DNA of 64,000 nucleotides from assembly GCA_030141605.1 (NCBI GenBank), contig JAQGDQ010000226.1:244001-308000 (forward strand). Reading direction: 5' to 3'. Source of the DNA: Tubiluchus corallicola (taxonomy: Eukaryota > Priapulida > Priapulimorpha > Priapulimorphida > Tubiluchidae). This document shows, piece after piece, positions 7,411-64,000 of this stretch; within the stretch, counting starts at the first letter, position 1, and each line of letters opens with the position of its first letter. Both the position numbers and the translations under genes were made by a program. Below the pieces are notes generated by a model. It had not been told where the DNA came from, ran no database searches, and saw nothing but the letters and a program-made list of their open reading frames with translations.

Positions 7411-7636
7411 AACTTAATGGGAAAAACTTTCACGTGAATTGTTTCACTTAATGATAACTGCGTTAGTAGCATGAAACTGAGGCACAGCAAAAGTGAGCAA
7501 AATTCTTCAAATAGAGCACGCAATTGACCAAGTTTTTTGAAGCCAACATCCAAGTAATGTTTCAAAGATGTGCTACAAAATTGAGCAAAATTTTATGTGT
7601 AATAGATCGTCAGATTAATAAGCTTGATATAATGAT

Positions 7637-8293: not shown

Positions 8294-9170
8294 ATGAATT
8301 CTACTTCACTTTTAGCTGGTTTTGCTGCAGTAAATGTAATGGAAAACAAGGTCGATTTTTTTACTAAGACTGCAGCAGTAATGGTAGTCCTGCTGTTTGC
8401 ATTGCTATGCATTGCAATAATTGCAGGAAACTTGCTAGTGTTGATTGCAATTTGTAAAAATTCTCGATTGCAGACTAAAACTAATGCCCTTGTAGCATCG
8501 CTTGCAGTAACCGACTTGCTTGTTGGCGTCTCTACTCCTGTAGAAATTACAGTCATCTTGCATCCTGCTGTGAGGTCAGATCGAATATTCTTGCTGGTGT
8601 GCAACATATGTCAGTTAGTAATGATGAATGCAAGCATATTTCACTTGTGTCTGATAGCTGCTGAAAGATATGTGGCTGTTGTTCATCCATTCAAGTATCA
8701 CACCATCGTGAGGAAAGAAGCCATTGTTGCTGCACTTTGCTTTGTTTCGGCATTTGCTTTAATTCTGGCTGTTCCTAGTGTTGTTTTGATAATTGCATTT
8801 AAAATGCAGAAATTTTTAATTCTTGACAGTATTTTAGTGTTTTATCTACCAGTGCTTGTCATTCTTGTGCTGTATGTCCTAATTTGGAGAACTGCAAGAA
8901 GGCATATCATACAGATACACAGTCAAGGTCAGGGAAGCCAGACAAATGTGATGCAGATGAAAGCATCAAAAACCCTTGCCATCGTTACCCTTGCTTTTCT
9001 TTTATGCTGGGGACCCTTAACTTTGTATGGCACTTTATAAAGAGAAATATGAAATATCTAAGGTTTTATTTTCGTTTGGATTTACCAACAGTGCTGTTAA
9101 TCCACTAATATATGCATTTACTAATAGTGAGTTTAAGATGGCTTTCAAGAAGATTTTGCATTTTAATTAA
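8294..9170 (+). pseudogene. Class A GPCR, type 2, broken by a 17-bp deletion in the TM6-TM7 region
   Basis: ATG 8294 (MNSTSLL). Intact through TM6 (CWGP), then at about 9023 a stretch present in the paralogues at 37617 and 41079 is missing: GGCACTTTATAAAG replaces a 31-base sequence, a loss of 17 bp, with CTTT at both edges. The frame stops at 9040, while the former TM7 and C-terminus can be followed in another frame to TAA 9168-9170. TM4 also has a proline (LAVPSVV) not seen in the sister at 41079. Recent pseudogene. Confidence 0.88.
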
Positions 9171-11162
9171 TAATGCACAAATTCATTAATAATGAGTAAT
9201 CTAAATTATATTTGAGTGTACTTTACATTGCATGTCCTGTCTGGTTATGCAATGGCTAATTAATTTTACATGTAGTTTTATAATTGTTATAGCTAAAGCC
9301 AGTATATGCGCTTTATGCCTGCAAATAGAAACATTATTGTTGTGGCTATATATAAAACTCTTTAATATATTGATAACTTTTTATTGTATAATTGTATTGT
9401 GAAAATGAAAGCACATAATCTGCTTTTATTTCTAGCAGTGTCTTGCCTTGTTACTTCATTGCCAGATTTGCCATGTGTAACAGAGACTTTTGCTAAAAGA
9501 GACTAAACACCTGGTAGCTTTTTTCTTCTATCTTTCCTGCTGGGTGATATAAAGCTGTTGCATTTTTAGCTTTGAATGAATTATCAACTGCAGACAACGA
9601 AACAAAAAACTTTTCAATTGCCTATAAAATGATGAGAAATAAATTAGCTTTGTTTCTGAAATATGACATTATAAGTTATTGTTATTCTTGATTATTTGTG
9701 TTTGTTTTGCTAACCCTTCCTTGTTTAAGTCCCGATTTGATCGATATTGGCAGCACAACCCAGAAAAGTTTGTCCATCCTAGACTGCCTCAATGGCAGCA
9801 AAAATGTTTTGTGACGCAGCCCATGATCATGGAGTGCCGCTGTTTCTTTTAAGACTTAAATATAGAATTCAAAGAAGGTTGGAGAGGCTTATAAGCTATT
9901 ATTAACCTCTATCCTGCGATTGTAAAGGTAAATGTAACGGTTGTTTGTTTGTACTAAAGGATTTGCACAGCTCAGTTCATTCTGTTCCATTTGCTTGTTT
10001 AGGTTGAATTGTTTAGGTTAATATTGGCGTGGCAATGATATGCATATAAGTCGGAAAGGGTCAGAAAAAAATGTGACGAAGTTTAGACTGCAATAATGTT
10101 GGAAGCAAGAGCCCTGCAAAGTTGAAAATGTAACAGTGTGGTCTTTTAGCTGTGAAAATTACAAGTTTATTACTGATTTCTAATTAATGGCCAAAAAATT
10201 TTGCATGTTAAGAATTTAAATGCTGGAACAGTGTCAGCTACAATCGTCAGCTGAAAAATAGGCACACTGACGTACAAAACACTCAATGCATGGCAGCAAA
10301 CAATAAAGAAATCAAATATGGTTTTCACCACTGAAAATGAAGAGTACTGATAAAGATTTCTCGCCAAGAGAAAAAGGGACATATTCTTCTGAATTGCAGT
10401 ATCTGGAATCTCCATCAAAAGTAAGTGTACGAGGAACTAAGGGCAAAAATTGTTGACAGCTGGAACCAAATACACCTTAAAGAAGTGAGAAAGTGTGTCA
10501 GTTGTGTGAAGAAATGCTTTCGTCTAATTTGTCTTAAAAATGGCGGACACATAGAGCACTTGCTGTAGATTTTAACATTAGTGACAATTTTTTTCCGGCA
10601 TTTACTTTTTTGAGTTGTTCATTAAAAATTTCTGTTTTTTTTGGACAAATATAATGAAATGATCTAAAGTTTTTGGCATTTATACATAGCCATGCATATT
10701 AATTAATGTGGTAATTTTCAAATTATTCCTTTATTTTTTTTTCTTATGCTGTCATGACCCAAACTTTGACTCATTTTTTGTGCCACTTGATATCATATAT
10801 ACCTAATTGCTGGCATTTTGCAAAGTAATCTTGCATGTTACACATCAGTTGCATTGCATTGTTCTGCTTGTGCACTTAATGTTTATAAAGAGAAAGTTTG
10901 TTATCATAGCTATTGTGCTTTTTAACGTATTTAACACAATATTGCATGAATATTGTATGAGAATGGTCATCAAACATTACGTATTGTTCTTGTTTCTAAC
11001 AACCTTTTGTCATGGGTGGGCATTTTCAGATTTGCTTTAGCTCGCCTTTGCAAATGATCGTTGAGAAACTTAGCACTTCTTAGCTCATTCTGTTTTTTGT
11101 GGTACAAACTCATAGTGCTCTACATTTGCTTGAAGTTCTGACATTTATTTATGACTTTGATC
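9171..11162. other. Spacer duplicated at 41973-43958
   Basis: No gene is seen. The whole stretch is a close copy of the spacer after the gene at 41079, including the block around AGACTGCCTCAATGGCAGCA and a block with AAAATGGCGGACACATAGAG, which is present a third time near 32660. Bases 10807-11040 are a type 2 leader with TTTATAAAGAGAAAG and GCATTTTCAGATTTGC. Small open frames there are not conserved as protein. Confidence 0.6.
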
Positions 11163-11287
11163 ATGAATTCTATTCATTTTTGGCTGGTTTTGCTGCAGTA
11201 AATGTAACAGAAAACAAGATCTATTTTTTTACTAAGACTGCGGCAGTAATGGTAGTCCTGCTGTTTGCATTGATATGTTTTGCTATC
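11163..11287 (+). pseudogene. GPCR relic: N-terminus and start of TM1
   Basis: Starts at the usual type 2 ATG but has lost one base in the third to fifth codons, so the ATG is out of frame with the rest. The match to 43959 ends in TM1 at TTTTGCTAT and is replaced by the 31-bp repeat. It occupies the place that the intact gene at 43959 holds in the duplicated copy of this region. Nearly identical relics lie at 33300 and 47954. Confidence 0.8.
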
Positions 11288-11481
11288 ATTGTGAGAATGA
11301 ATGACATTATATTGCATCATTGTGAGAATGAATGACATTATACTGCATCATTGTGAAAATGATTGACATTATATTGCATCATTGTGAGAATGAATGACAT
11401 TATATTGCATCATTGTGAGAATGAATGACAGTATATTGCATAATTGTGAAAATGAATGACATTATACTGTATCATTGTGAA
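11287..11481 (+). repeat. 31-bp tandem repeat, about six units
   Basis: Unit ATTGTGAGAATGAATGACAT plus TATATTGCATC. Similar arrays are at 33426-33592 and 48078-48241. A single copy of the same sequence stands in the upstream region of the gene at 14865 (about 14620-14655), so the arrays look like expansions of a promoter segment. Confidence 0.88.
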
Positions 11482-11642
11482 AATGATCATACTTAGTTTG
11501 CTTGTGTTTCTGACAGTGATTTCCTTGTAAATGCGTTTTCAGATTTTCGATTGCAGTGAAAATATGATACGGACATTTACGAATGCAAATGCTCTACTTT
11601 TGCAAACCTTTCGAACGTTTTTCGAAATGTGATGTTGTGAAC

Positions 11643-12617
11643 ATGAATACATCTTCGTTACTGATTGATCTTGCTACCATGAACACAACTGAAACTGGGG
11701 TTACATTTTTAGCAAAGTCTGTAATTTCAATAATAGTTCTGCTGCTAATACTATTAGGTATTGCTATAATAGGTGGAAACTTGTTAGTTCTGATTGCAGT
11801 TTGTAAGATTCCTCGTTTACAAACTAAAACAAATGTTCTTGTTGTGTCTCTTGCTGTAACTGATTTACTTGTTGGTTTATCAACACCAGCAGAAGTGACC
11901 ACAGTGTTGTGTCCAGCTGTGTTGTCAAACCAAGTGTTTGTATTGGTGCTGTACATATTTGAAGTTGGAATGGTGAATGCAAGTGCATTAAACTTGTGTC
12001 TGATAGCAGCTGAAAGGTATGTGGCTGTTGTTCATCCATTCAAGTATCACACCATCGTGAGAAAAGAAGCCATTGTTGCCGCACTTTCCATTACTTGGAT
12101 TGTTGCTTTCATTGAGGCAGTTATTTATATTATTTTCAAATTAATTTTGAATGCACGAAGTCTATTAATCGTTGAAGCCACTTTGGGATTTTATTTACCA
12201 GTGTTTACGATTTTTGTACTGTATGTCCTTATTTGGAGAACTGCAAGAAGGCACGTCTTACAGATACATAGTCAAATTCAAGGAAGCCAGGCAAATGTGA
12301 TGCAGATGAAAGCAACAAAAACTTTAGCCATTGTTACCTTTGTTTTTCTGGTATGTTGGGGTCCCTTTTCTCTGTATCAGACAGTTTGTTATATATTGTC
12401 TTACGAACTTAAATATGAAATACTTGAGTTTTTATATGTATTTGGATTTATCAACAGTGCCATTAATCCAATCGTTTATGCGCTGTCTAGCACTGATTTC
12501 AGACAAGCTTTCAAAAAAATTGCGTTTTCACGTAAATTGTCACGCAATTTCGTTAGTAGCATGAAACTGAGAAACCGCACAAGTGAGCAAAATTCTTCAA
12601 ATAGAGCACACAATTGA
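11643..12617 (+). CDS. Class A GPCR, type 1 with full C-terminal tail, intact, 324 aa
   Basis: ATG 11643 (MNTSSLL) is preferred to the in-frame ATG 11583, because that upstream stretch is 5' flank in other copies. TM1 has GGN instead of AGN. ERY, CWGP, NPIVY and the sodium-pocket residues are kept. After helix 8 the frame continues about 30 residues (tail with SSMKLRNRTSEQN, Ser/Asn-rich) instead of ending at SREL; only 27996 shares this. This is probably the ancestral form, since other copies keep the tail as untranslated fossil. Its upstream region and TM1 are copied at 47908-48530. Confidence 0.92.
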   Translation: MNTSSLLIDLATMNTTETGVTFLAKSVISIIVLLLILLGIAIIGGNLLVLIAVCKIPRLQTKTNVLVVSLAVTDLLVGLSTPAEVTTVLCPAVLSNQVFVLVLYIFEVGMVNASALNLCLIAAERYVAVVHPFKYHTIVRKEAIVAALSITWIVAFIEAVIYIIFKLILNARSLLIVEATLGFYLPVFTIFVLYVLIWRTARRHVLQIHSQIQGSQANVMQMKATKTLAIVTFVFLVCWGPFSLYQTVCYILSYELKYEILEFLYVFGFINSAINPIVYALSSTDFRQAFKKIAFSRKLSRNFVSSMKLRNRTSEQNSSNRAHN

Positions 12618-13800: not shown

Positions 13801-14864
13801 AAAGTACTCTTTCACGTAGCACTTCATTTTTGCATTGGACAATGTTTCACAGGTGTGCATAGTGTTTATAAGAGGCTGTTTCACTAGTTGAGTCAACAAG
13901 CATGCTTCTGTCTTTGCAGCCATCTAAAGAAATGTCATTAATTTTATTTGTTGTGACACAATAAACACAGTCATGTAGGAGACTTAATCAGACTTTTCAA
14001 TCATCAGGACAATATTAGTTTGAAACGAATTTACCATATTTGGTAATTTTGTAACATTTGTCGTATGTGACTTCTTATTCTTAATGAATTTAAAGTCACA
14101 TATAACAATTGTATGAGGAAATTGTTTTCACTATCTTACCAGTGCAAAGGAAATGACGGGAGATTTTGCTGTTCCTGATTTTGATCTGTTACTAAGAAAA
14201 TGTTCATTTTCCTTAAAATCATGTCTTGAAACATGTGATAATCTATTAATCTTATAATTGGTTTTAACCACTAGCTCTCATTTATTTTTTATCGTTTACT
14301 GTGTCCAACTAACTTTATGGACATTTTCATGTGTGAAATAAAATTGAAATTTAATTCAAAACTTAAGTAGTTGTGGTAATGTTTATTGCATGCATCTACG
14401 AAGTCATCCAGCCAGGAATCAGATGTCATACACTTACTGTCTAAGCTAGAGAAAATTATGGCTACCGTCCAACAATACACATTGCTCTTGCCTAATAGCT
14501 GAAATGTTTTCGTGATCCAAAGTAAACTTGCAAAGTAAAGTGCAATTGTTCTGCTGGTGTGCTTTGTGTCTTTAAAATTCTATGGCTAGAAACATTATCA
14601 TTGTGGCTTTTTAATATAAATGACATTATATTGGATCATTGTGAGAATGACTGTGTATAGTTTGATTGTATTTCTGATAATGCTTTTCTTGTAAATGTAT
14701 TTCCCATTTGCCGTTGCAGTTAAAATACAACACTGACATTTGCTAAAGTCAACTGAATGCTCGGCTACCTGTTCATTTTGTCTTTCGTGACAGGTGTGTT
14801 TATCAATGAAAATGCTCTGCTGTTGAAAACCTTTATGACTTTTTTCGAATGCGATGCTGTGAAC
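13801..14864 (+). other. Upstream spacer of 14865, with decayed small-ORF copy and mutated TATA
   Basis: At 14157 begins a truncated copy of the small open frame seen whole at 27276 (MTGDFAVPDFD). The position of the TATA box seen before paralogues holds TTTAAAATTC at about 14581. One unit of the 31-bp sequence is at about 14620. TTTGCCGTTGCAG near 14720 and TTTCGTGACAG near 14793 are acceptor-like. No complete gene. Confidence 0.5.
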
Positions 14865-15764
14865 ATGAATACATCTTCATTTTTGGTTGATTTTGCTACT
14901 ATGAATACAACAGAAAGTGGGGTTACATTTTTAGCAAAGTCTGTGATTTCAATAAAAGTTCTACTGCTAATACTATTAGGTATTGCTATAATAGCTGGAA
15001 ACTTATTAGTTCTGATTGCAGTTTGTAAGTTTCGCCGTTTACAAACTAAAACAAATTTTCTTGTTGCGCCTCTTGCTGTAACAGATTTACTTGTTGGTTT
15101 ATCAACACCAACAGAAGTGACCACAGTGTTGTATCCAGCTGTGTTGTCAAACCAAGTGTTGGTATTGGTGCTGTACATATTTGAAGATGGAATGGTGAAT
15201 GCAAGTGCATTAAACTTGTGTCTGATAGCAGCTGAAAGATATGTGGCTGTTGTTCATCCATTCAAGTATCACACCATCGTGAGAAAAAAAACCATTGTTG
15301 CCGCACTTTTCATTACTTGGATTTTTGCTTTAACTGTGGCAGCGCTTTGTGTTATTTTCGCGTTCATTTTCAATAAACATGGTCTGTTAGTCGTTGATGC
15401 CACTTTAACATTTTATTTACCAGTGTTTACGATTTTTGTACTGTATGTCCTAATTTGGAGAACTGCAAGAAGGCACGTCTTGCAGATACACAGTCAAGGT
15501 CTAGAAAGCCAGGCAAACGTGATGCAAATGAAAGCAACAAAAACTTTAGCCATTGTTACCATTGCTTTTCTGGTATGTTGGGGTCCCTTTTATCTGAATC
15601 AGACAGTTTGTCATATATTGTCTTACGAAGAGAAATATGAAATAGTTGAGTTTTTATATGTATTTGATTTATCAACAGTGCCATTAATCCAATCGTGTAT
15701 GCACTGTCTAGCACTGATTTTAGATGGGCTTTCAAAAAAAATGTTGCTTTCACGTGAATTGTAA
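14865..15764 (+). pseudogene. Class A GPCR, type 1, TM7 scrambled by two opposing indels
   Basis: ATG 14865. Normal through TM6. In TM7 one G is missing (TTTGATTTATC where paralogues have TTTGGATTTATC, about 15665), shifting the frame so that NPIVY and the sodium-site asparagines are lost. An extra A in the run TTCAAAAAAAATG (about 15742) restores the frame for the last nine residues, so the open frame stays nearly normal in length. The shifted segment is still hydrophobic but lacks all TM7 motifs. With the altered TATA upstream, I call it a pseudogene, although the frame is open and residual translation is possible. Confidence 0.75.
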
Positions 15765-21021: not shown

Positions 21022-21170
21022 NNNNNNNNNNNNNNNNTTACACAGGTGTGGTAATACGTACACATTTTAGACATCTAACTGTTGAAGTGCTAAAGTAGTC
21101 ATTGGACAGTAATTTCACAGGCGTGATAATATGTACACATTACTAGCATCTGACTGTTGAAGTGCCAAAG
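21022..21170 (+). repeat. 75-bp minisatellite array 5 with 16-base assembly gap
   Basis: Sixteen N bases at 21022-21037 stand exactly at the left edge of the array, followed by about 1.8 units. The true number of units here is unknown and probably larger. Confidence 0.85.
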
Positions 21171-32136: not shown

Positions 32137-33299
32137 AGGTGTGATAATATCCATGTTACGGGCAATGTGCAAATTTAGAGATTTTATGCAATTCCTAGGC
32201 ATTTCATATAACACCTTTCCATTTCAAGAAAAGTGTGAAAAAATGTTTTTACTGCTGCACTTTCAGACTTTACCTAGACGTTTGTATAATACTTAATGTC
32301 TGTATAGAATGCACGAAGTGATTTTGGTAAAGTGTAAAATTGAGTTAATTTGCCTTGCATCCAACTCTTAGGTGATTTTTGCATAATATAGTGTGATGTT
32401 TTAATCATTAAATGTGTCGTTCATTTCGTTTGTACAGCACCATAGTATTTTAATGGGGATTCAGATTTTTGGGACATATTCTTCTGAATTGCAGTATCTG
32501 GAATTTCCTTCAAAAGTAAGTGTACAACAGAGCTTATTTAATAGAGCTGTTTGGTGCAAAGGAACTAAGGGCAAAAATTGTTGACAGCTGGAGCCAAATA
32601 CACCTTAAAGAAGTGAGAAACTGTGTCAGTTGTGTGAAGAAATGCTTTCGTCTAATGTGTGTTAAAAATGGCGGACACATAGAGCACTTGCTGTAAATTT
32701 TAACATTAGTGACAAATTTTTTCCGGCATTTACTTTTTTGAGTTGTTCATTAAAAATTTGTTTTTTGGACAAATTTAAGGAATGACCTAAAGTTTTTGGC
32801 ATTCATACATAGCTACGCGTATTGATCAGTGTGGTAATTTTCAAATTATTCCTTTATTTTCTTCTTATACTGTCATGATCCAAACTTTGACTCATTTTTT
32901 GTGCCAGTTGATGTAATATATACCTAATTGCTGGCATTTTGCAAAGTAATCTTGCATGTTACACATCAGCTGCATTACATTGTTCTGCTTGTGCTCTTAA
33001 TGTTTATAAAGAGAAAGTTTGTTATCATAGCTATTGTGCTATTTAACGTATTTAACACTGTATTGCATGAATATTGTATGAGAATGGTCATCAAACATTA
33101 CGTATTGTTCTTGTTTCTAACGACCTTTTGTGGTGCGTGGGCATTTTCAGATTTGCTTTAGCTCACCTTTGCAGTGAGAAGATAATGTAAATGCTCGTTG
33201 AGAAACTTAGCGCTTCGTAGCTCATTCTGTGTTTTGTGGTATAATATCATAGCGCTCTACGTTTGCTTTTAGTTCTGGCATTTATTTATGACTTTGATC
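32137..33299. other. Spacer duplicated from the 10.3-11.1 kb region
   Basis: From about 32465 it copies 10380-11160 (TTCTTCTGAATTGCAG, AAAATGGCGGACACATAGAG, type 2 leader with TTTATAAAGAGAAAG). No gene is seen. Confidence 0.55.
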
Positions 33300-33425
33300 A
33301 TGAATTCTACTTCACTTTTGGCTGGTTTTGCTGCAGTAAATGTAACAGAAAACAAGATCAATTTTTTTTACTAAGACTGCGGCAGTAATGGTAGTCCTGC
33401 TGTTTGCATTGATATGTTTTGCTAT
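33300..33425 (+). pseudogene. GPCR relic: N-terminus and start of TM1
   Basis: Usual MNSTSLL start with sequon NVT, then an extra T in the run before TTACTAAGACTGCGG shifts the frame. Homology ends in TM1 at TTTTGCTAT, as at 11287 and 48078, and the 31-bp repeat follows. The frame damage differs from the 11163 copy, so they decayed separately. Confidence 0.8.
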
Positions 33426-33592
33426 CATTGTGAAAATGAATGACATTATATTGCATCATTGTGAGAATGAATGACATTATACTGCATCATTGTGAAAATG
33501 ATTGACATTATATTGCATCATTGTGAGAATGAATGACATTGTATTGCATCACTGTGAGAATGAATGACATTATAATGCATCATTGTGAAAAT
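33426..33592 (+). repeat. 31-bp tandem repeat, about five units
   Basis: Same unit as at 11287, with its own variants (CATTGTATTGCATCACTG). Confidence 0.88.
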
Positions 33593-33749
33593 GATCATAC
33601 GTAGTTTGCTTGTATTTCTGACAGTGATTTCCTTGTAAATGCATTTTCAGATTTTTGATTGCAGTGAAAATATGATACGGACATTTACGAATACAAATGC
33701 TCTACTTTACAAACCTTTCGAACGTTTTTGGAAATGTGATGTTGTGGAC

Positions 33750-34649
33750 ATGAATAGATTTTCGTTGCTGGTTGATCTTGCTACCATTAACACAACTGAA
33801 AGTGGGGTTACATTTTTAGCAAAGTCTGTAATTTCAATAAAAGTCCTGCTGCTAATACTATCTGGTATTGCTATAATAACTGGAAACTTATTAGTTCTCA
33901 TTGCAGTTTGTAGGATTCCTCGTTTGCAAACTAAAACAAATGTTCTTGTTGCATCTCTTGCAGTAACTGATTTACTTGTTGGTTTATCAACACCAGCAGA
34001 AGTGACCACAGTGTTTTATCCAGCTGTGTTGTCAAACCAAGTGTTTCTTTTGGTGCTGTACATATTTGAACTTGGAATGGTGAATGCAAGTGCATTAAAC
34101 TTGTGTCTGATAGCAGCTGAAAGATATGTGGCTGTTGTTCATCCATTCAAGTATCACACCATCATGAGAAAAGAAACCATTGTTGCCGCACTTTCCATTA
34201 CTTGGATTTTTGCTTTAACTGTGGCAGCTATTTATGTTATTTTCTTATACATTTTTAATGTACAAAGTCTATCAATCGTTGATGCTACTGTATCATTTTA
34301 TTTACCAGTGCTAACGATTCTTGTGCTCTACGCCTTAATTTGGAAAACTGCAAGAAGGCACGTCTTGCAGATACACAGTCAAGGTCAAGAAAGCCAGGCA
34401 AACGTGATGCAGATGAAAGCAACAAAAACTTTAGCCATTGTTACCTTTGTTTTTCTGGTATGTTGGGGTCCCTTTTCTCTGTATCAGACAGTTTGTTATA
34501 TATTGTCTTACGAAGAGAAATATGAAATAGTTGAGTTTTTATATGTATTTGGATTTATCAACAGTGCCATTAATCCAATCGTGTATGCACTGTCTAGCAC
34601 TGATTTTAGATGGGCTTTCAAAAAAATGTTGCTTTCACGTGAATTGTAA
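33750..34649 (+). CDS. Class A GPCR, type 1, intact, 299 aa
   Basis: ATG 33750 (MNRFSLLVD). The first sequon is lost (NRF instead of NTS); INTTES keeps the second. ICL1 starts CRIPR. TM4-ECL2 is as in 27996 (YIFNVQSLSIVD), TM6 has FVFLVCWGPFSLYQ. Ends LLSREL with the fossil tail downstream. The upstream half (31-bp array, TTTTCAGATTTTTGATTGCAG) is the same type as for 11643. A half-gene follows at 34878. Confidence 0.93.
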   Translation: MNRFSLLVDLATINTTESGVTFLAKSVISIKVLLLILSGIAIITGNLLVLIAVCRIPRLQTKTNVLVASLAVTDLLVGLSTPAEVTTVFYPAVLSNQVFLLVLYIFELGMVNASALNLCLIAAERYVAVVHPFKYHTIMRKETIVAALSITWIFALTVAAIYVIFLYIFNVQSLSIVDATVSFYLPVLTILVLYALIWKTARRHVLQIHSQGQESQANVMQMKATKTLAIVTFVFLVCWGPFSLYQTVCYILSYEEKYEIVEFLYVFGFINSAINPIVYALSSTDFRWAFKKMLLSREL

Positions 34650-47802: not shown

Positions 47803-47907
47803 GTGCATCTTACTTTCAACGCTGATAATTTCGCCACTATGAACACAAGTGAAAACGAATCTGCTTATTTAAGTAAGCCTGTGATAGTGATAGCGGTTCT
47901 GTTGTAT
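47803..47907 (+). pseudogene. Stranded original 5' end of receptor 48403
   Basis: Reads FATMNTSENESAYLSKPV and then IVIAVLLYA, clearly a receptor N-terminus running into TM1 but unlike any other copy here. At 47908 (GCTCTACATTCGC) it is cut by sequence copied from 11117-11770. The matching continuation of TM1 resumes at about 48531. This was probably the native start of the gene now beginning at 48403. Confidence 0.75.
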
Positions 47908-48402
47908 GCTCTACATTCGCTTGAAGTTCTGACATTTATTTATGACTTTGATCATGAATTCTATTCATTTTTGGCTGGTTTTGCTGCAGTAAATGTAACA
48001 GAAAACAAGATCTATTTTTTTACTAAGACTGCGGCAGTAATGGTAGTCCTGCTGTTTGCATTGATATGTTTTGCTATCATTGTGAGAATGAATGACATTA
48101 TATTGCATCATTGTGAGAATGAATGACATTTTACTGCATCATTGTGAAAATGATTGACATTATATTGCATCATTGTGAGAATGAATGACATTATATTGCA
48201 TAATTGTGAAAATGAATGACATTATACTGTATCATTGTGAAAATGATCATACTTAGTTTGCTTGTGTTTCTGACAGTGATTTCCTTGTAAATGCGTTTTC
48301 AGATTTTCGATTGCAGTGAAAATATGATACGGACATTTACGAATGCAAATGCTCTACTTTTGCAAACCTTTCGAACGTTTTTCGAAATGTGATGTTGTGA
48401 AC
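47908..48402 (+). other. Transplanted leader from the 11.1 kb region, with relic and 31-bp repeats
   Basis: Almost identical to 11117-11642, minus one 31-bp unit. It contains the N-terminal relic (47954-48078, same one-base loss as at 11163), the 31-bp array (48078-48241) and the acceptor-like TTTTCAGATTTTCGATTGCAG. It brings a new upstream region to the following gene. Confidence 0.85.
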
Positions 48403-49287
48403 ATGAATACATCTTCGTTACTGATTGATCTTGCTACCATGAACACAACTGAAACTGGGGTTACATTTTTAGCAAAGTCTGTAATTTCAATAATAGTTCT
48501 GCTGCTAATACTATTAGGTATTGCTATAATTGCAGGAAACTTATTAGTTCTGATTGCAATTTATAAACTTCCTCGTTTGCAAACTAAAACGAATGCTCTT
48601 GTTGCATCACTGGCTGTAACTGATTTACTTATTGGGTTCACTACGCCAGCAGAAATTATAGCGCTATTGTACTCAGTTGTGAGGTCAAGCCAGGTGATGA
48701 CCGTAAAGTACATTTTACAGTATGGAACCATAAATGCAAGTGTGTTTCATCTGTGTCTGATAGCAGTTGAAAGATACATAGCTGTTGTCCATCCATTCAA
48801 GTATCACAGCATCATAAGAAAAGAAGCCATTGTTACTGCACTTTGCGTTACTTGGATTATTGCGTTAACTGAGGCTACAATTACAGTTTACTTCAAATTC
48901 ATTCTCAACGCGCAGACTCAAATATCTTATCTTGACATTATCTTGATCTTTTATTTACCAATGCTAACGATTCTTGCACTGTATGGTCTAATTTGGAGAA
49001 CTGCAAGAAGGCACGTTTTACAGATACACAGTCAAGGTCAGGGAAGCCAGGCAAGTGTGAAGCAGATGAAAGCAACAAAAGCGTTAGCCTTTGTTACCTT
49101 TGCTTTTCTGATATGTTGGGGACCCGAGTTCATTCACGACACATTTATTTATGTGTCGACCTATAGAAGGAAACGCGAAACGTTGATCCTTTTTGCACTT
49201 GGTTTCATCAACAGTGCCTTCAATCCAATCATATACGCATTTTCCAGTCCAGACTTTAAAATGGCTTTCAAGAAAATCTTGTTTTGA
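48403..49287 (+). CDS. Class A GPCR, chimera with acquired type 1 N-terminus, intact, 294 aa
   Basis: ATG 48403 (MNTSSLL). The first 43 codons or so, up to about 48530 in TM1, equal 11643; from AGN on, the protein is a separate lineage: YKLPR, TM2 LLIGFTTPAEIIALLY, TM3 KYILQYGTINASVFHL, VERY, TM4-ECL2 with TITVYFKF, TM6 ICWGPEFIHDTF, TM7 FINSAFNPIIYAF, end KKILF. All signature residues are kept, so the chimera is plausibly functional. Last receptor of the array. Confidence 0.93.
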   Translation: MNTSSLLIDLATMNTTETGVTFLAKSVISIIVLLLILLGIAIIAGNLLVLIAIYKLPRLQTKTNALVASLAVTDLLIGFTTPAEIIALLYSVVRSSQVMTVKYILQYGTINASVFHLCLIAVERYIAVVHPFKYHSIIRKEAIVTALCVTWIIALTEATITVYFKFILNAQTQISYLDIILIFYLPMLTILALYGLIWRTARRHVLQIHSQGQGSQASVKQMKATKALAFVTFAFLICWGPEFIHDTFIYVSTYRRKRETLILFALGFINSAFNPIIYAFSSPDFKMAFKKILF

Positions 49288-59352: not shown

Positions 59353-61074
59353 ATGTATCTTCATGATGCGAAATATCAGGACCGCCATGCCATCTTGGAG
59401 TTCGACCCCCTGGGTCGAATCCAGTCCACTGGTGTCGCAGAAGTGGATAAAGAACATTCTCACCCACACCCTGCTCAAAGTTTTTTTGATGATGATGTGG
59501 CTTCTCAGGCTTCTTCCTGGGTAAGCTCTTTAGAGCGTTGTTCTGCTGGCCCTGTTGTCAATTGTGTCCCCCCAAGCGTAATTTCACATCCTGATAATAA
59601 ACTAGGTCAGACAAATTCATTTCTGTCTACTAATGCTAACCTTGATCGCGTACTTGGTCAACGCGAAAATTCAGGCTTCAATTCTGCCAGTCCCAGTAAT
59701 CAAAATTTAGCTGTAGAATTGCAAAATTTGTCATCGCGTTGTGATTCCCAGTTTAAAGATTTGAGTTGTGCAGTGGCTGCGCTTTCTCAAGCGGTCACTA
59801 GCTTAGCAAAGAATTTTTCTGAACGCTGTGACATATCGCGGCCTGAACATAGGCCTACTTCGAGTAGAAAACCTGTTTTGAATTCTACTCCAGCTAGCGA
59901 ACTGTGCCAAACTGTCGAACCCGCTGTTTGTAAACTAAATACTGAATCTCCTAAATCGTTAGTCCATTTCGCTGAAAATCATGGAAATGAGAAGTTTTCA
60001 GATTTGCCAATTCAATTTTGTACTCCCACGCATGCGCAGTCAGAAGTACCGGTTCCGAGTAGCACGTCTGTTTGTCAACATAGCTTACACACCACAAATA
60101 CTATTAGCGCGCACGAAGTGAAAAACTTACCATTTTTTGATGGGGAAACGGTCCCATGGGAAAGTTATAAAGCGCAATTTCGATTGTTAGTTGAACTTAA
60201 CGGTTGGAATAATTATGAAGCCGGTTTACGTTTAGCACTGAAACTTAAAGGGAAAGCTGTTGGGGTTCTTGAAACTTTGTCGCCTGCCCAACGCTCTGAT
60301 TATGCAATGCTATGCTCTGCTTTAAGCCGTCGATTCGGGTGTGACAATCGCGAAAGTGTATACCGCGCTCAATACAACAGCCGTTACCGTCAACCCGGCG
60401 AAGATTTGCGGCAATATGCAGATCATTTGCGTACCTTGTACCACCGTGCATACCCAGCAGTAGACTTAAATTCTGCAGAACATCAATTAGCGTTGAAGTT
60501 CATAGATGGTTTGTGTGATGTAGAACTAGCTATACACGTGCAGCAAAGCTTTCCCACGAATCTTGCTGATGCGTTGGCGTCTGCTTTGTCTATAGAATCT
60601 ATTCGTTTAACTGCAAAGCGCAGCGCTGAGCTTACGACTATTAAAACGCGCAGAACATTGACGCAGAATCAAGATCCGGGATGGAATAAAGCTCCCACCA
60701 CAGCAGAAAATTTCGAGGGTAACACAAATAATCGCGCTAAGTCTGAACTGCCAGACAATCATGTACCTACAGAAAGGATTCACGGAACAAATGATTTTGT
60801 TTGTTATTGCTGCAATGCGGTTGGTCATTTTGCAAGGAACTGTCCATTGCGTCGTAAGTCACAACAGTCTTACCCAACAAGAACATTTGATAACTCATTA
60901 TTCCGCTTATCTCAAAACTCACAGAGTAATTCGCGATTTTGCAGCCAGTCTAGACCGAGTAAAAGTAATCGAAATTATGACAACCCTCGCGGTTATACTG
61001 TGCCAGTTTCGAACTCGCAGCGCAATTGTAGAAACTCGCGCAATTCCTGTCTTCCACCTTCGCGTTTTCAGTAG
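59353..61074 (+). CDS. gag: Retrotransposon Gag polyprotein, 573 aa
   Basis: ATG 59353. The middle part (about residues 255-440) begins [18 protein letters not shown] and resembles the Ty3/gypsy capsid-like retrotransposon Gag domain. A CCHC zinc knuckle lies near the C-terminus: C484, C487, H492 and C497 (CX2CX4HX4C), followed by basic, Ser/Asn/Arg-rich sequence for RNA binding. Intact frame, stop TAG 61072-61074. Pol is in the -1 frame and already open before this stop. Confidence 0.92.
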
Positions 61075-64000
61075 CGGGTGGGCGGAAAAAGAGGCATCGT
61101 GCCACCCGCCAGACACAAAAGGCCTCGCACAAACTAAGCGAAACACTCCCTTCGGGTCAACCTAAGGTTGGTACTGTGCTCAGTGAATTGAATCAGGCTG
61201 CTGGTCTTTATGCTGTCGGCTCAATAGATGGCAATAAATGCCGAATACTAGTGGACACAGGGGCTACGCATACCACAGTTCGTCCTGAGCTTATAACCAA
61301 TCAGCTTGAGCCGTTGGGGTGGCAAACCGCTATAGGTGTAACCGGTGCACCTTTGCAATTACGTGGCCCAATTTCGGTTTCATTGCAACTCGGTACAATT
61401 TCTAGTACTGTGTCGGCTTGTCTAACTGGTGACCTAGCCGGAGAAGATTGCATTTTGGGCTTAGACTGGCTTCGAGAAAATAAAGCCATAGTAGACACTG
61501 GCCTAAAACGCATTATTCTTCCGGATGGCCAGTTTGTTGAGCTCACACTGCTACCTGGAGGTTGTACAGACGTGATAAACATTCGTCGTGTGACTATACC
61601 CGCGCTTTCGGAAGCCGTTATCGAAACTCAACCTGTTTTACCGTTACCGCACACATTAGGTATGGTTAGCCTTGGCAGCAAACCATTTCGGTCAGACGGT
61701 CTTTTAACTGGACGGATAACTTCGCCAGCTGGTGCTACTACAATTCGTGCCATAGTAGCAAACATAACCAACTATCCTGTTACACTCTCGGAAAAAGAAC
61801 CTGTTGGTCAATGGGAAAGCGTTAACGAAATTGTTTGTCCTATTAAACTTTCTTCAATGAAAGGTTTTCAGTCTAAACCTAAAAATGCAAGCAAAAGAGC
61901 GCTTTCTGAACCGGTGCAAAAACTTTTAAATGCTAGTAAAACTGCACTATCCAGTACGCAGTACAAGCAGTTGAAAAGCCTGTTAATCAAGTATAACGAT
62001 TTATTTTCCTCTGGAACCTATGACATTGGTCGTACAAATATTGTTCAACATCGCATTAATACAGGTACTCACCACCCTATTAAGACTCAAGCAAGGCGTC
62101 TTGGCCAGGCCCAACGCGAGGAATTAAATGCAGCAATGGATGAAATGCAGAGACAGGGAGTAATTGAACCGTCTTGCAGCCCCTGGTCTTCTGCGGTGGT
62201 CCTTGTACGAAAAAAAGATGGAGGAACGCGCTGCTGTATAGACTACAGGGCTCTCAATTCGGTTACAATCAAAGACAGCTATCCCCTGCCTCGCATTGAT
62301 GATTCAATCGATGCCCTTTCCGGTGCCAAGTGGTTCTCCACTTTAGATTTAAAATCGGGGTACCACCAGGTAGAAATGGCACGGAAGACAAAGAAAAGAC
62401 CGCATTTGTAACACACAGAGGGTTGTGGCAGTTTAAAACTCTTCCTTTTGGTCTAGTTAATGCGCCTGCTACTTTTGAACGCTTAATGGAGCAAATTTTA
62501 ACTGGCTTGCACTGGCAAACGTTGTTAATTTATTTAGATGACGTCATCGTTTTCGGGCGCACCTATGAGGAACACCTTGCTCGGTTGCAAGAAGTTTTTG
62601 AACGTTTTATGACGGCAGGCCTAAAACTCAATGCTAAAAAGTGTTTGCTAACGCAAAGAGAAGTCACGTATCTAGGACATGTTGTTAGCCATACCGGTGT
62701 ACGTACCGATCCGGCAAAAATAGAAGCCGTTGTGAATTGGCCTGAACCTAATAACGTATCTGATCTTAGAAGCTTTTTAGGCCTGTGCACATACTACCGG
62801 CGTTTCATAAAAAACTTCGCGGATATAGCGGCACCTCTGCATTTACTAACTCGCAAGCAGCAACCTTACGTTTGGCAGGCTAGCCAACAGAACGCTTTTA
62901 ATTGTTTGAAAACTTTGCTTACAAATGCGCCAGTTCTGGCCTACCCACAATTTGACACTGAATTTGTACTCGACACTGACGCGAGTAGTATAGCGATAGG
63001 CGGTGTTCTCTCACAAATTCAGGGCGACCAAGAGCGCGTGATAGCGTATTACAGCCAAATTTTATCTCCTGCAGAACGAAATTATTGCGCTACACGCCGC
63101 GAACTTCTTGCAGTGGTTAAAGCTGTGAATCACTTTCACCACTATCTTTACGGACGGCAGTTTGTTATACGTACTGACCATGCTGCTCTTCGCTGGCTGA
63201 GAACTTTGCGTAAACCAGAGGGTCAGTTAGCTCGCTGGCTTTGCAAATTAGACCAGTATGGTTACACAATAGAACATCGTGCAGGCAAAAGTCACGGAAA
63301 TGCGGACGCGCTTTCTCGTCGGCCCTGCGAAGCCAGTTGCAAACATTGTAGCAAACGAGAACCGAGTAACGTAATGCAACAAAATGCGAAAATTAATAAA
63401 ATCGGCACAACATTAAGAGATGTAAATCTTGATTTTGCTGAAGGGCAGACCAAAGACAAAGACATAGCCCCAATATTGGGATTTTTGCAAACTTCAGCCC
63501 AAAAACCTGCTTGGGAGCAAGTTTCTGCGCTAAGCCCTGAATCAAAAGCTATTTGGCACCAATGGGATGTGCTCAAAGTTGAAAACGGGGTAGTGCAGCG
63601 TAAATGGGAATCTCCAGACGGGACTGTAGTCCGTTACCAATGGCTAGTTCCTAGAGCCTTTCGTGAAAGTCTACTTACAGGGTTTCATAATAATCCTACT
63701 GCTGGTCACTTCGGCCAGAACAAAACTTTTGCCAGGCTGCGTGAGCGGTACTTCTGGCCAGGCATGCGGAAGGATATCCAGTTATGGATACGGTCATGTC
63801 GTGAATGTTGTCGGAAAAAGGGGCCCCAGCGCAAACCAAGAGCACCTTTGCAACAGTACAGGGTAGGAGCTCCTATGGAGCGCATAGCAATAGATGTAGC
63901 TGGACCTTTCCCTAAATCAGACTCGGGAAATAAGTATGTCCTGATCGCTGTAGATTATTTTACCAAATGGCCTGAAGGGTACGCCCTACCTAACCAAGAA
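61075..64000 (+). pseudogene. pol: Retrotransposon Pol (PR-RT-RH-IN), frameshifted and incomplete
   Basis: Part one runs in the -1 frame to Gag and stops at 62411. It holds an aspartic protease (VDTGATHT near 61251) and the first reverse transcriptase motifs ([30 protein letters not shown]). At about 62380 the frame shifts; part two is open from there to the window end with LPFGL(V)NAP, the YLDD box at 62530-62541, RNase H (DTDAS near 62977, TDHAALRWL), the integrase HHCC zinc finger (H-X6-H, CX2C near 63800) and the first Asp of the integrase core (IDVAGPF). No ATG begins it, so frameshift or readthrough expression is likely in active relatives. Confidence 0.9.

Follow-up and report, generated by a model that had tools for sequence, protein, structure and literature searches.

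Pace et al. 2009 (PMC2671141) surveyed vertebrate genomes for templated insertions at breaks, and the repair-mediated duplications described in the available part of that survey share several traits with the receptor gene analyzed here, which begins at position 48403 of a 64,000-nucleotide stretch of DNA (the window, C1770:244001-308000). Common to both are a copied donor at a presumed break, microhomology, a small target deletion and no poly-A, and the 608 bp copied at 48403 fall inside the size range of those duplications, whose proximal class has a maximum of 619 bp. In the confident class of that survey the donor lies within 5 kb, whereas the donor of 48403 is 36.8 kb away and so falls outside the class; target-site duplications accompany some of the surveyed cases, and there is none at 48403. 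Unlike the duplications as described there, 48403 has one junction in register within a paralogous gene, which yields an in-frame chimera. The swap at 48403 therefore works like a repair-mediated duplication, though by the 5-kb criterion it is not one.

A second likeness is with the HBD genes of galago, cat and microbat, which are described as having gained beta-like promoters via gene conversion (PMC4390247). There, as at 48403, the 5′ flank of a paralogue was replaced by that of a neighbor in the same cluster. According to the part of that study available, a recognized promoter was gained in HBD, whereas the DNA gained at 48403 is known only as upstream DNA; unlike HBD, the 48403 swap also has a nonhomologous left end and a surviving relic of the old 5′ end. 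Chimeric gene duplicates are likewise a recognized class (Katju 2012 review, PMC3449122), and by the definition in the available part of the review they resemble 48403 in drawing on at least two donor sequences, of which one or more are genic, which for 48403 is seen in discordant trees. The chimeras treated there found a new extra copy, whereas 48403 is an existing gene with its 5′ part replaced. A coral study, in the part available, reports gene conversion to be very rare in coral tandem arrays (PMC10236652); the array around 48403 would count as an exception only in a coral host. No paper on the 48403 locus appeared among the titles listed in a literature search, a weak negative because the search was not keyed to the species. 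Chimeras and promoter capture through gene conversion are already known, and 48403 is a well-resolved, unusually legible recent case and a clear example of a known route to new genes; with both parents, the unswapped site and the junctions legible in one genome, the repair route and the effect on expression become directly testable.

The chimeric receptor gene and its array

The window contains a tandem array of receptor genes, most with a single uninterrupted reading frame, for which we coined the type labels A, B and C after 11643, 41067 and 24551 respectively; the genome searched comprises 343.5 Mb in 2344 contigs. Searches for the COX1 and GFP families had no match in this genome; the GFP search detected its family in 0 of 14 controls and is uninformative, and the COX1 search succeeded in 8 of 14 controls, its blank being explicable by a missing mitochondrial genome. 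Gene 48403 is predicted to encode a class A (rhodopsin-like) G protein-coupled receptor, its product matching PF00001 (7tm_1) over residues 45-278 with an E value of 2.6e-39 and 135.7 bits against a cut-off of 30.5. The top PDB sequence matches to the product are aminergic receptors, with beta-adrenergic receptors first, and an AlphaFold2 model built from an alignment of 13 window proteins is helical, at low confidence (mean pLDDT 49.2, pTM 0.35). The strong hydrophobicity of TM1 is kept in the chimera, with a peak Kyte-Doolittle mean of 3.21 (donor 3.09, old gene 2.83). Body dN/dS is 0.31-0.41 in comparisons with five window paralogues and 0.39 and 0.66 in those with the two copies of the body on contig C1131 that are considered below; these values reflect constraint before the swap, and with only 2 differences in the copied block, constraint after it cannot be demonstrated. 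The features of the locus and of its donor are collected in the table.

Table. Features of the chimeric receptor locus and its donor (positions in the window)
Feature	Position	Strand	Basis
Donor block, spanning the 5′ end of receptor gene 11643-12617 and the DNA upstream of it	11116..11770	+	Alignment with 47907-48530
Stranded old N-terminus of the recipient, ending inside TM1, own start codon lost	47803..47909	+	Alignment with start-keeping C1131 copies
Predicted 95-codon ORF that opens in the stranded N-terminus and continues in frame across the B relic	47839..48126	+	ORF only
Left junction, TGC common to old site and donor (3-bp microhomology)	47907..47909	+	Old TTGTATGCGTTG; donor ATAGTGCTCTAC; window TTGTATGCTCTAC
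Donor-derived DNA, 608 bp, in place of 8 bp (GTTGTCAT) of old TM1	47910..48517	+	Alignments with C1131 copies and donor
Older relic within the block, with the start and half the TM1 of a B-type receptor and a frameshift near the ATG	47954..48077	+	Alignment with B genes 41067, 43959, 8294; ends by eye
31-bp minisatellite, one unit shorter than the donor's	48078..48250	+	Core at 48079, 48110, 48141, 48172, 48203, 48234; ends by eye
A-type leader with acceptor-like TTTTCAG at 48296-48302	48251..48402	+	Sequence comparison, motif scan
Chimeric class A receptor gene (predicted), 294 aa; ORF may open at 48343 (314 aa)	48403..49287	+	Pfam 7tm_1; mosaic trees
Right junction, 13 bp GTATTGCTATAAT, common to old gene and donor in codon register	48518..48530	+	Alignments
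Recipient's own receptor body	48531..49287	+	0.969 identity over 388 bases to each C1131 copy

The copied block and the site it replaced

When 47907-48530 (624 bp) is aligned with 11116-11770 (655 bp) there are 622 identities, 2 mismatches and one 31-bp gap, the gap being one minisatellite unit that is absent from the block (the core scan counts 6 positions for the block against 7 for the donor). The coding part of 48403 is identical to that of 11643 for 128 of 128 bases, after which identity falls abruptly to 0.739 over 751 aligned bases, and none of 2000 column shuffles reached the score of this tract. The donor, 36.8 kb upstream of the recipient, has kept its locus with an open gene at 11643-12617, so that the copying was nonreciprocal. 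A similar block, at 33253-33877, is separated from the donor by 30 mismatches. The donor's own DNA beyond the left edge still resembles the upstream DNA of B genes, and since this similarity continues past the TGC, the donor has no natural border at the left edge.

The stranded N-terminus together with its upstream DNA occurs in three places in the genome, the window itself and two places on C1131, at 45.4-45.9 kb (+) and 49.3-48.8 kb (-), and in both C1131 copies the old N-terminus is directly joined to the body. Identity of the stranded segment is 94% to C1131:45430-45535(+) and 92% to C1131:49323-49218(-). Its translation from 47803 reads VHLTFNADNFATMNTSENESAYLSKPVIVIAVLLYAL, the counterpart protein on C1131 begins MHPTSNADNFATVNTSENESAYLSKPVIVIAVLLYAL, and a 13-bp deletion in the window removes the ATG that the C1131 copies retain. 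Read across the junction, the order on C1131 is TTGTATGC, GTTGTCAT, GTATTGCTATAATTGCAGG, and the protein of the copy is uninterrupted there (MHPTSNADNF...VIVIAVLLYALSCIAIIAGNLLVLIA). Because the old N-terminus leads directly into the body on C1131, the window had 8 bp exchanged for 608 bp.

At the left junction, the old site and the donor differ beyond the shared 3 bp. Among the matches scored in the genome, the window alone crosses this junction, and the best non-self identity to a query covering the N-terminus and left junction was at most 94%, bar one 71-base match at 96%. The right junction lies in the 5′-most in-register exact run of at least 10 bp between the old copy and the donor. In a genome search across it, both C1131 copies start exactly at 48518 and from there are 100% identical to the window for 123 and 121 bases. 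With the body as query, the two C1131 copies are by far the closest in the genome (97% over 385 bases), and the other 14 window genes reach an identity of at most 0.77. No second site matching both leader and body at full identity was found among 40 of 78 candidates scored, the next best being the donor at 92%.

These results agree with much of a preliminary description of the locus. It had placed a stranded N-terminus at 47803-47907, which indeed matches the start of both C1131 copies and extends to 47909, and had proposed that the block gives gene 48403 a new upstream region, ATG and start of TM1, as the donor alignment and, above all, the unswapped order on C1131 bear out. Its 623-bp block nearly identical to 11117-11770, with one repeat unit fewer, is recovered as 624 bp against 11116-11770. 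The near-identity stands, and the limits need small corrections: 608 bp were inserted in the strict sense, and because the 3 bp to the left and the 13 bp to the right occur in both parents, the exact breakpoints cannot be fixed inside those flanks.

In both C1131 copies the homology to the body breaks off near residue 173-177, and no intact unswapped gene was found in the genome. In the minus-strand copy the homology returns after a nonhomologous stretch, and another such stretch lies near TM7. With 10 differences between them in 402 bases of body, the two copies are not simple assembler-made duplicates. Colinearity with the window includes the left flank and body in both arms and the right flank in the minus-strand arm, and a third copy of the right flank lies on C443. 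C1131 is partly palindromic and may be misassembled. Around relatives of the 48403 locus (L002 and L016 at C1131:44260-52672, L018 at C443:16500-24608) both contigs are partly palindromic, and these palindromes may be real inverted duplications or assembly fold-backs.

From 33 kb on, C1131 carries parts of the window's 4.9-52 kb in unchanged order, interspersed with other array genes. To the left of 33 kb it has no match above 86% identity and 150 bp to C1770:226000-317000, and for C1131:26001-32999 no match to C1770 was found among 40 of 11598 candidates scored. For one 4-kb sample taken elsewhere on C1770, the 40 of 5258 candidates scored revealed no second copy except of a repeat of about 530 bp, and another 4-kb sample has partial copies on C1736 at 94% and 86% (among 40 of 470 candidates scored). 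By these comparisons, C1131 may be the other haplotype (an allele) or a paralogue of the window locus.

Parentage, age and upstream region

Trees were built separately from the N-terminal segment and from 402 body columns of 17 sequences, the 15 window genes and the two C1131 copies. Up to the junction, 48403 and 11643 group at zero distance, and in the next 402 alignment columns 48403 groups with the C1131 copies with a support of 1.000. The trees and alignments support the direction of the swap, with 11.1 kb as the donor and 48.4 kb as the recipient. The block differs from the donor at 2 of 624 bases (0.0032, Poisson interval 0.0004-0.0116), whereas a comparison of the window with each C1131 arm shows 12 differences in 402 bases of body and 14 or 17 in 250 bases of left flank, and the contrast gives Fisher p values of 4e-4 to 4e-8. 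As the block has diverged less than the body and left flank have from C1131, the swap appears to be far more recent than the separation of the window locus from C1131, and the earlier suggestion of a recent event, made from near-zero divergence, gains a reference point in the larger divergence of C1131. The body differences are unevenly placed, the first 121-123 bases being identical and all 12 differences falling in the next 280, so that later exchange with C1131-like copies is possible and the dating is rough. The segment 48518-48640 is identical to C1131:45544-45664 and 49209-49087, by chance or through later exchange.

With its new 5′ DNA, gene 48403 may have taken over the regulation of the donor, as the preliminary description proposed. 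By a raw motif count, 7 of the 15 window genes scanned have TTTYCAGATTT in the 350 bp upstream of them, and the TTTTCAG within the leader of 48403 may represent a 3′ splice site. If the site is genuine, the block need not include the first exon and promoter, which could still be the old ones, and if transcription starts at the old promoter, the 95-codon ORF would precede the new start. That ORF holds two half TM1 segments, one from the stranded N-terminus and one from the B relic. The relics were also considered as alternative first exons and rejected, because the donor-like GT after the relics and the acceptor-like AG of the body are mismatched in phase (by eye), and the unswapped C1131 copy reads through without an intron.

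Origin of the swap and other rearrangements of the array

The structure, both parents, the direction and the relative age of the swap are demonstrated by the comparisons above, and from them we infer the break, the pairing, the joining and the timing of the repeat-unit loss. The recipient was probably repaired from its paralogue 36.8 kb upstream, which left an in-frame chimera with a stranded N-terminus. A break, or stalled copying, would have occurred inside TM1 of a receptor gene of the array, with the upstream paralogue as repair template. The body side would have paired with the donor in register over 13 identical bp, and the donor's first 115-128 coding bases with 493 bp upstream of its start would then have been copied, with the loss of one 31-bp repeat unit. 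Joining of the new end to the far side of the break at the 3-bp microhomology, with the loss of 8 bp, would have left the old N-terminus upstream and turned the gene into an in-frame chimera whose start codon and adjacent upstream DNA are new. The 13 bp in register on the right, compared with 3 bp on the left, fit a homology-guided body side and closure by microhomology, and synthesis-dependent repair from an ectopic template is a model described in the available part of PMC2671141. As aligned, the left junction rests on 3 bp, and classical interlocus gene conversion, which needs homology at both ends of the tract, was rejected on that ground; a simple crossover was rejected because it would have deleted the stranded N-terminus, which persists.

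An unlikely but closely similar route is replicative template switching, in which a fork in TM1 jumps to the paralogue at the TGC and returns at GTATTGCTATAAT 8 bp further on. It predicts a product identical to that of break repair, and the return within 8 bp, the shared bases at both ends and the one repeat unit fewer than in the donor all fit it. The 13 bp in register at the return fit a homology-guided step slightly better, and the sequence does not otherwise speak against a switch.

That the assembly joined two parts of a repetitive array is very unlikely. The region is repetitive and contains one 16-N run at 21022-21037, and other contigs of the assembly are partly palindromic; however, overlaps of 3 and 13 bp are, from general knowledge, short for a misjoin, the block departs from the donor in repeat number and at 2 bases, and the stranded N-terminus bears its own 13-bp deletion. 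Scarcely any more credit can be given, and if anything slightly less, to several ordinary steps, in which tandem duplication or unequal crossing-over set the donor 5′ end beside the recipient and deletions trimmed it later: the array is full of duplications, relics and truncated bodies, but at least two events are needed, the block is near-identical throughout and the target lost only 8 bp. Chance insertion of a receptor 5′ end by a mobile element or as a retrocopy can practically be dismissed, since, despite retroelement-like ORFs elsewhere in the window (59353-62411, by eye), there is no target-site duplication, 8 bp of the target are lost, the block includes upstream DNA of the donor, and its 3′ end lies in register inside TM1.

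To judge from paralogue alignments, 48403 is not the sole mosaic of the array. Gene C6535 (6535-7410) matches A11643 over a 168-bp tract with 2 mismatches and an identity of 0.80 outside it, and B43959 (43959-44852) matches A14865 over a 249-bp tract with 10 mismatches and 0.657 outside it, in each case with 0 of 2000 shuffles reaching the tract. The junction of the B relic, where the B gene passes into the minisatellite (TAT then CATTG), is common to 11.1 kb, 33.25 kb and C391:264.3 kb, and it is therefore an older event, probably spread by later duplication. Two of the three breaks in the array, independent events at the B relic and at the 48403 swap, lie in the same part of TM1, no more than about 10 codons apart, and three breaks are too few to claim TM1 as a preferred break site. 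It is a distinctly doubtful proposition, based on these two breaks and the other mosaics, that TM1 is a recurrent exchange point, with leader and N-terminus forming a movable cassette that is repeatedly refitted to other bodies; if this were true, regulation and binding body would evolve separately.

A third stranded N-terminus, covering residues 1-65, was found 14.8 kb to the left of the window start, at C1770:229244-229438, where by eye it ends in the first intracellular loop and precedes an apparently full-length A-type gene at 229678. Six receptor bodies lack a 5′ part, at 7628, 29077 and 34868 of the window and at C1770:243828, C1131:40117 and C391:265921; all begin near query residue 105, downstream of other receptor genes, and perhaps stem from one old truncation spread by duplication. 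The ORFs at 59353-62411 resemble retroelement gag and pol by eye, with a zinc knuckle and a reverse-transcriptase-like stretch. Finally, the gene at 14862-15764 looks frameshifted near TM7 and that at 8294-9040 looks truncated near TM6 (both by eye), and both are probably decaying.
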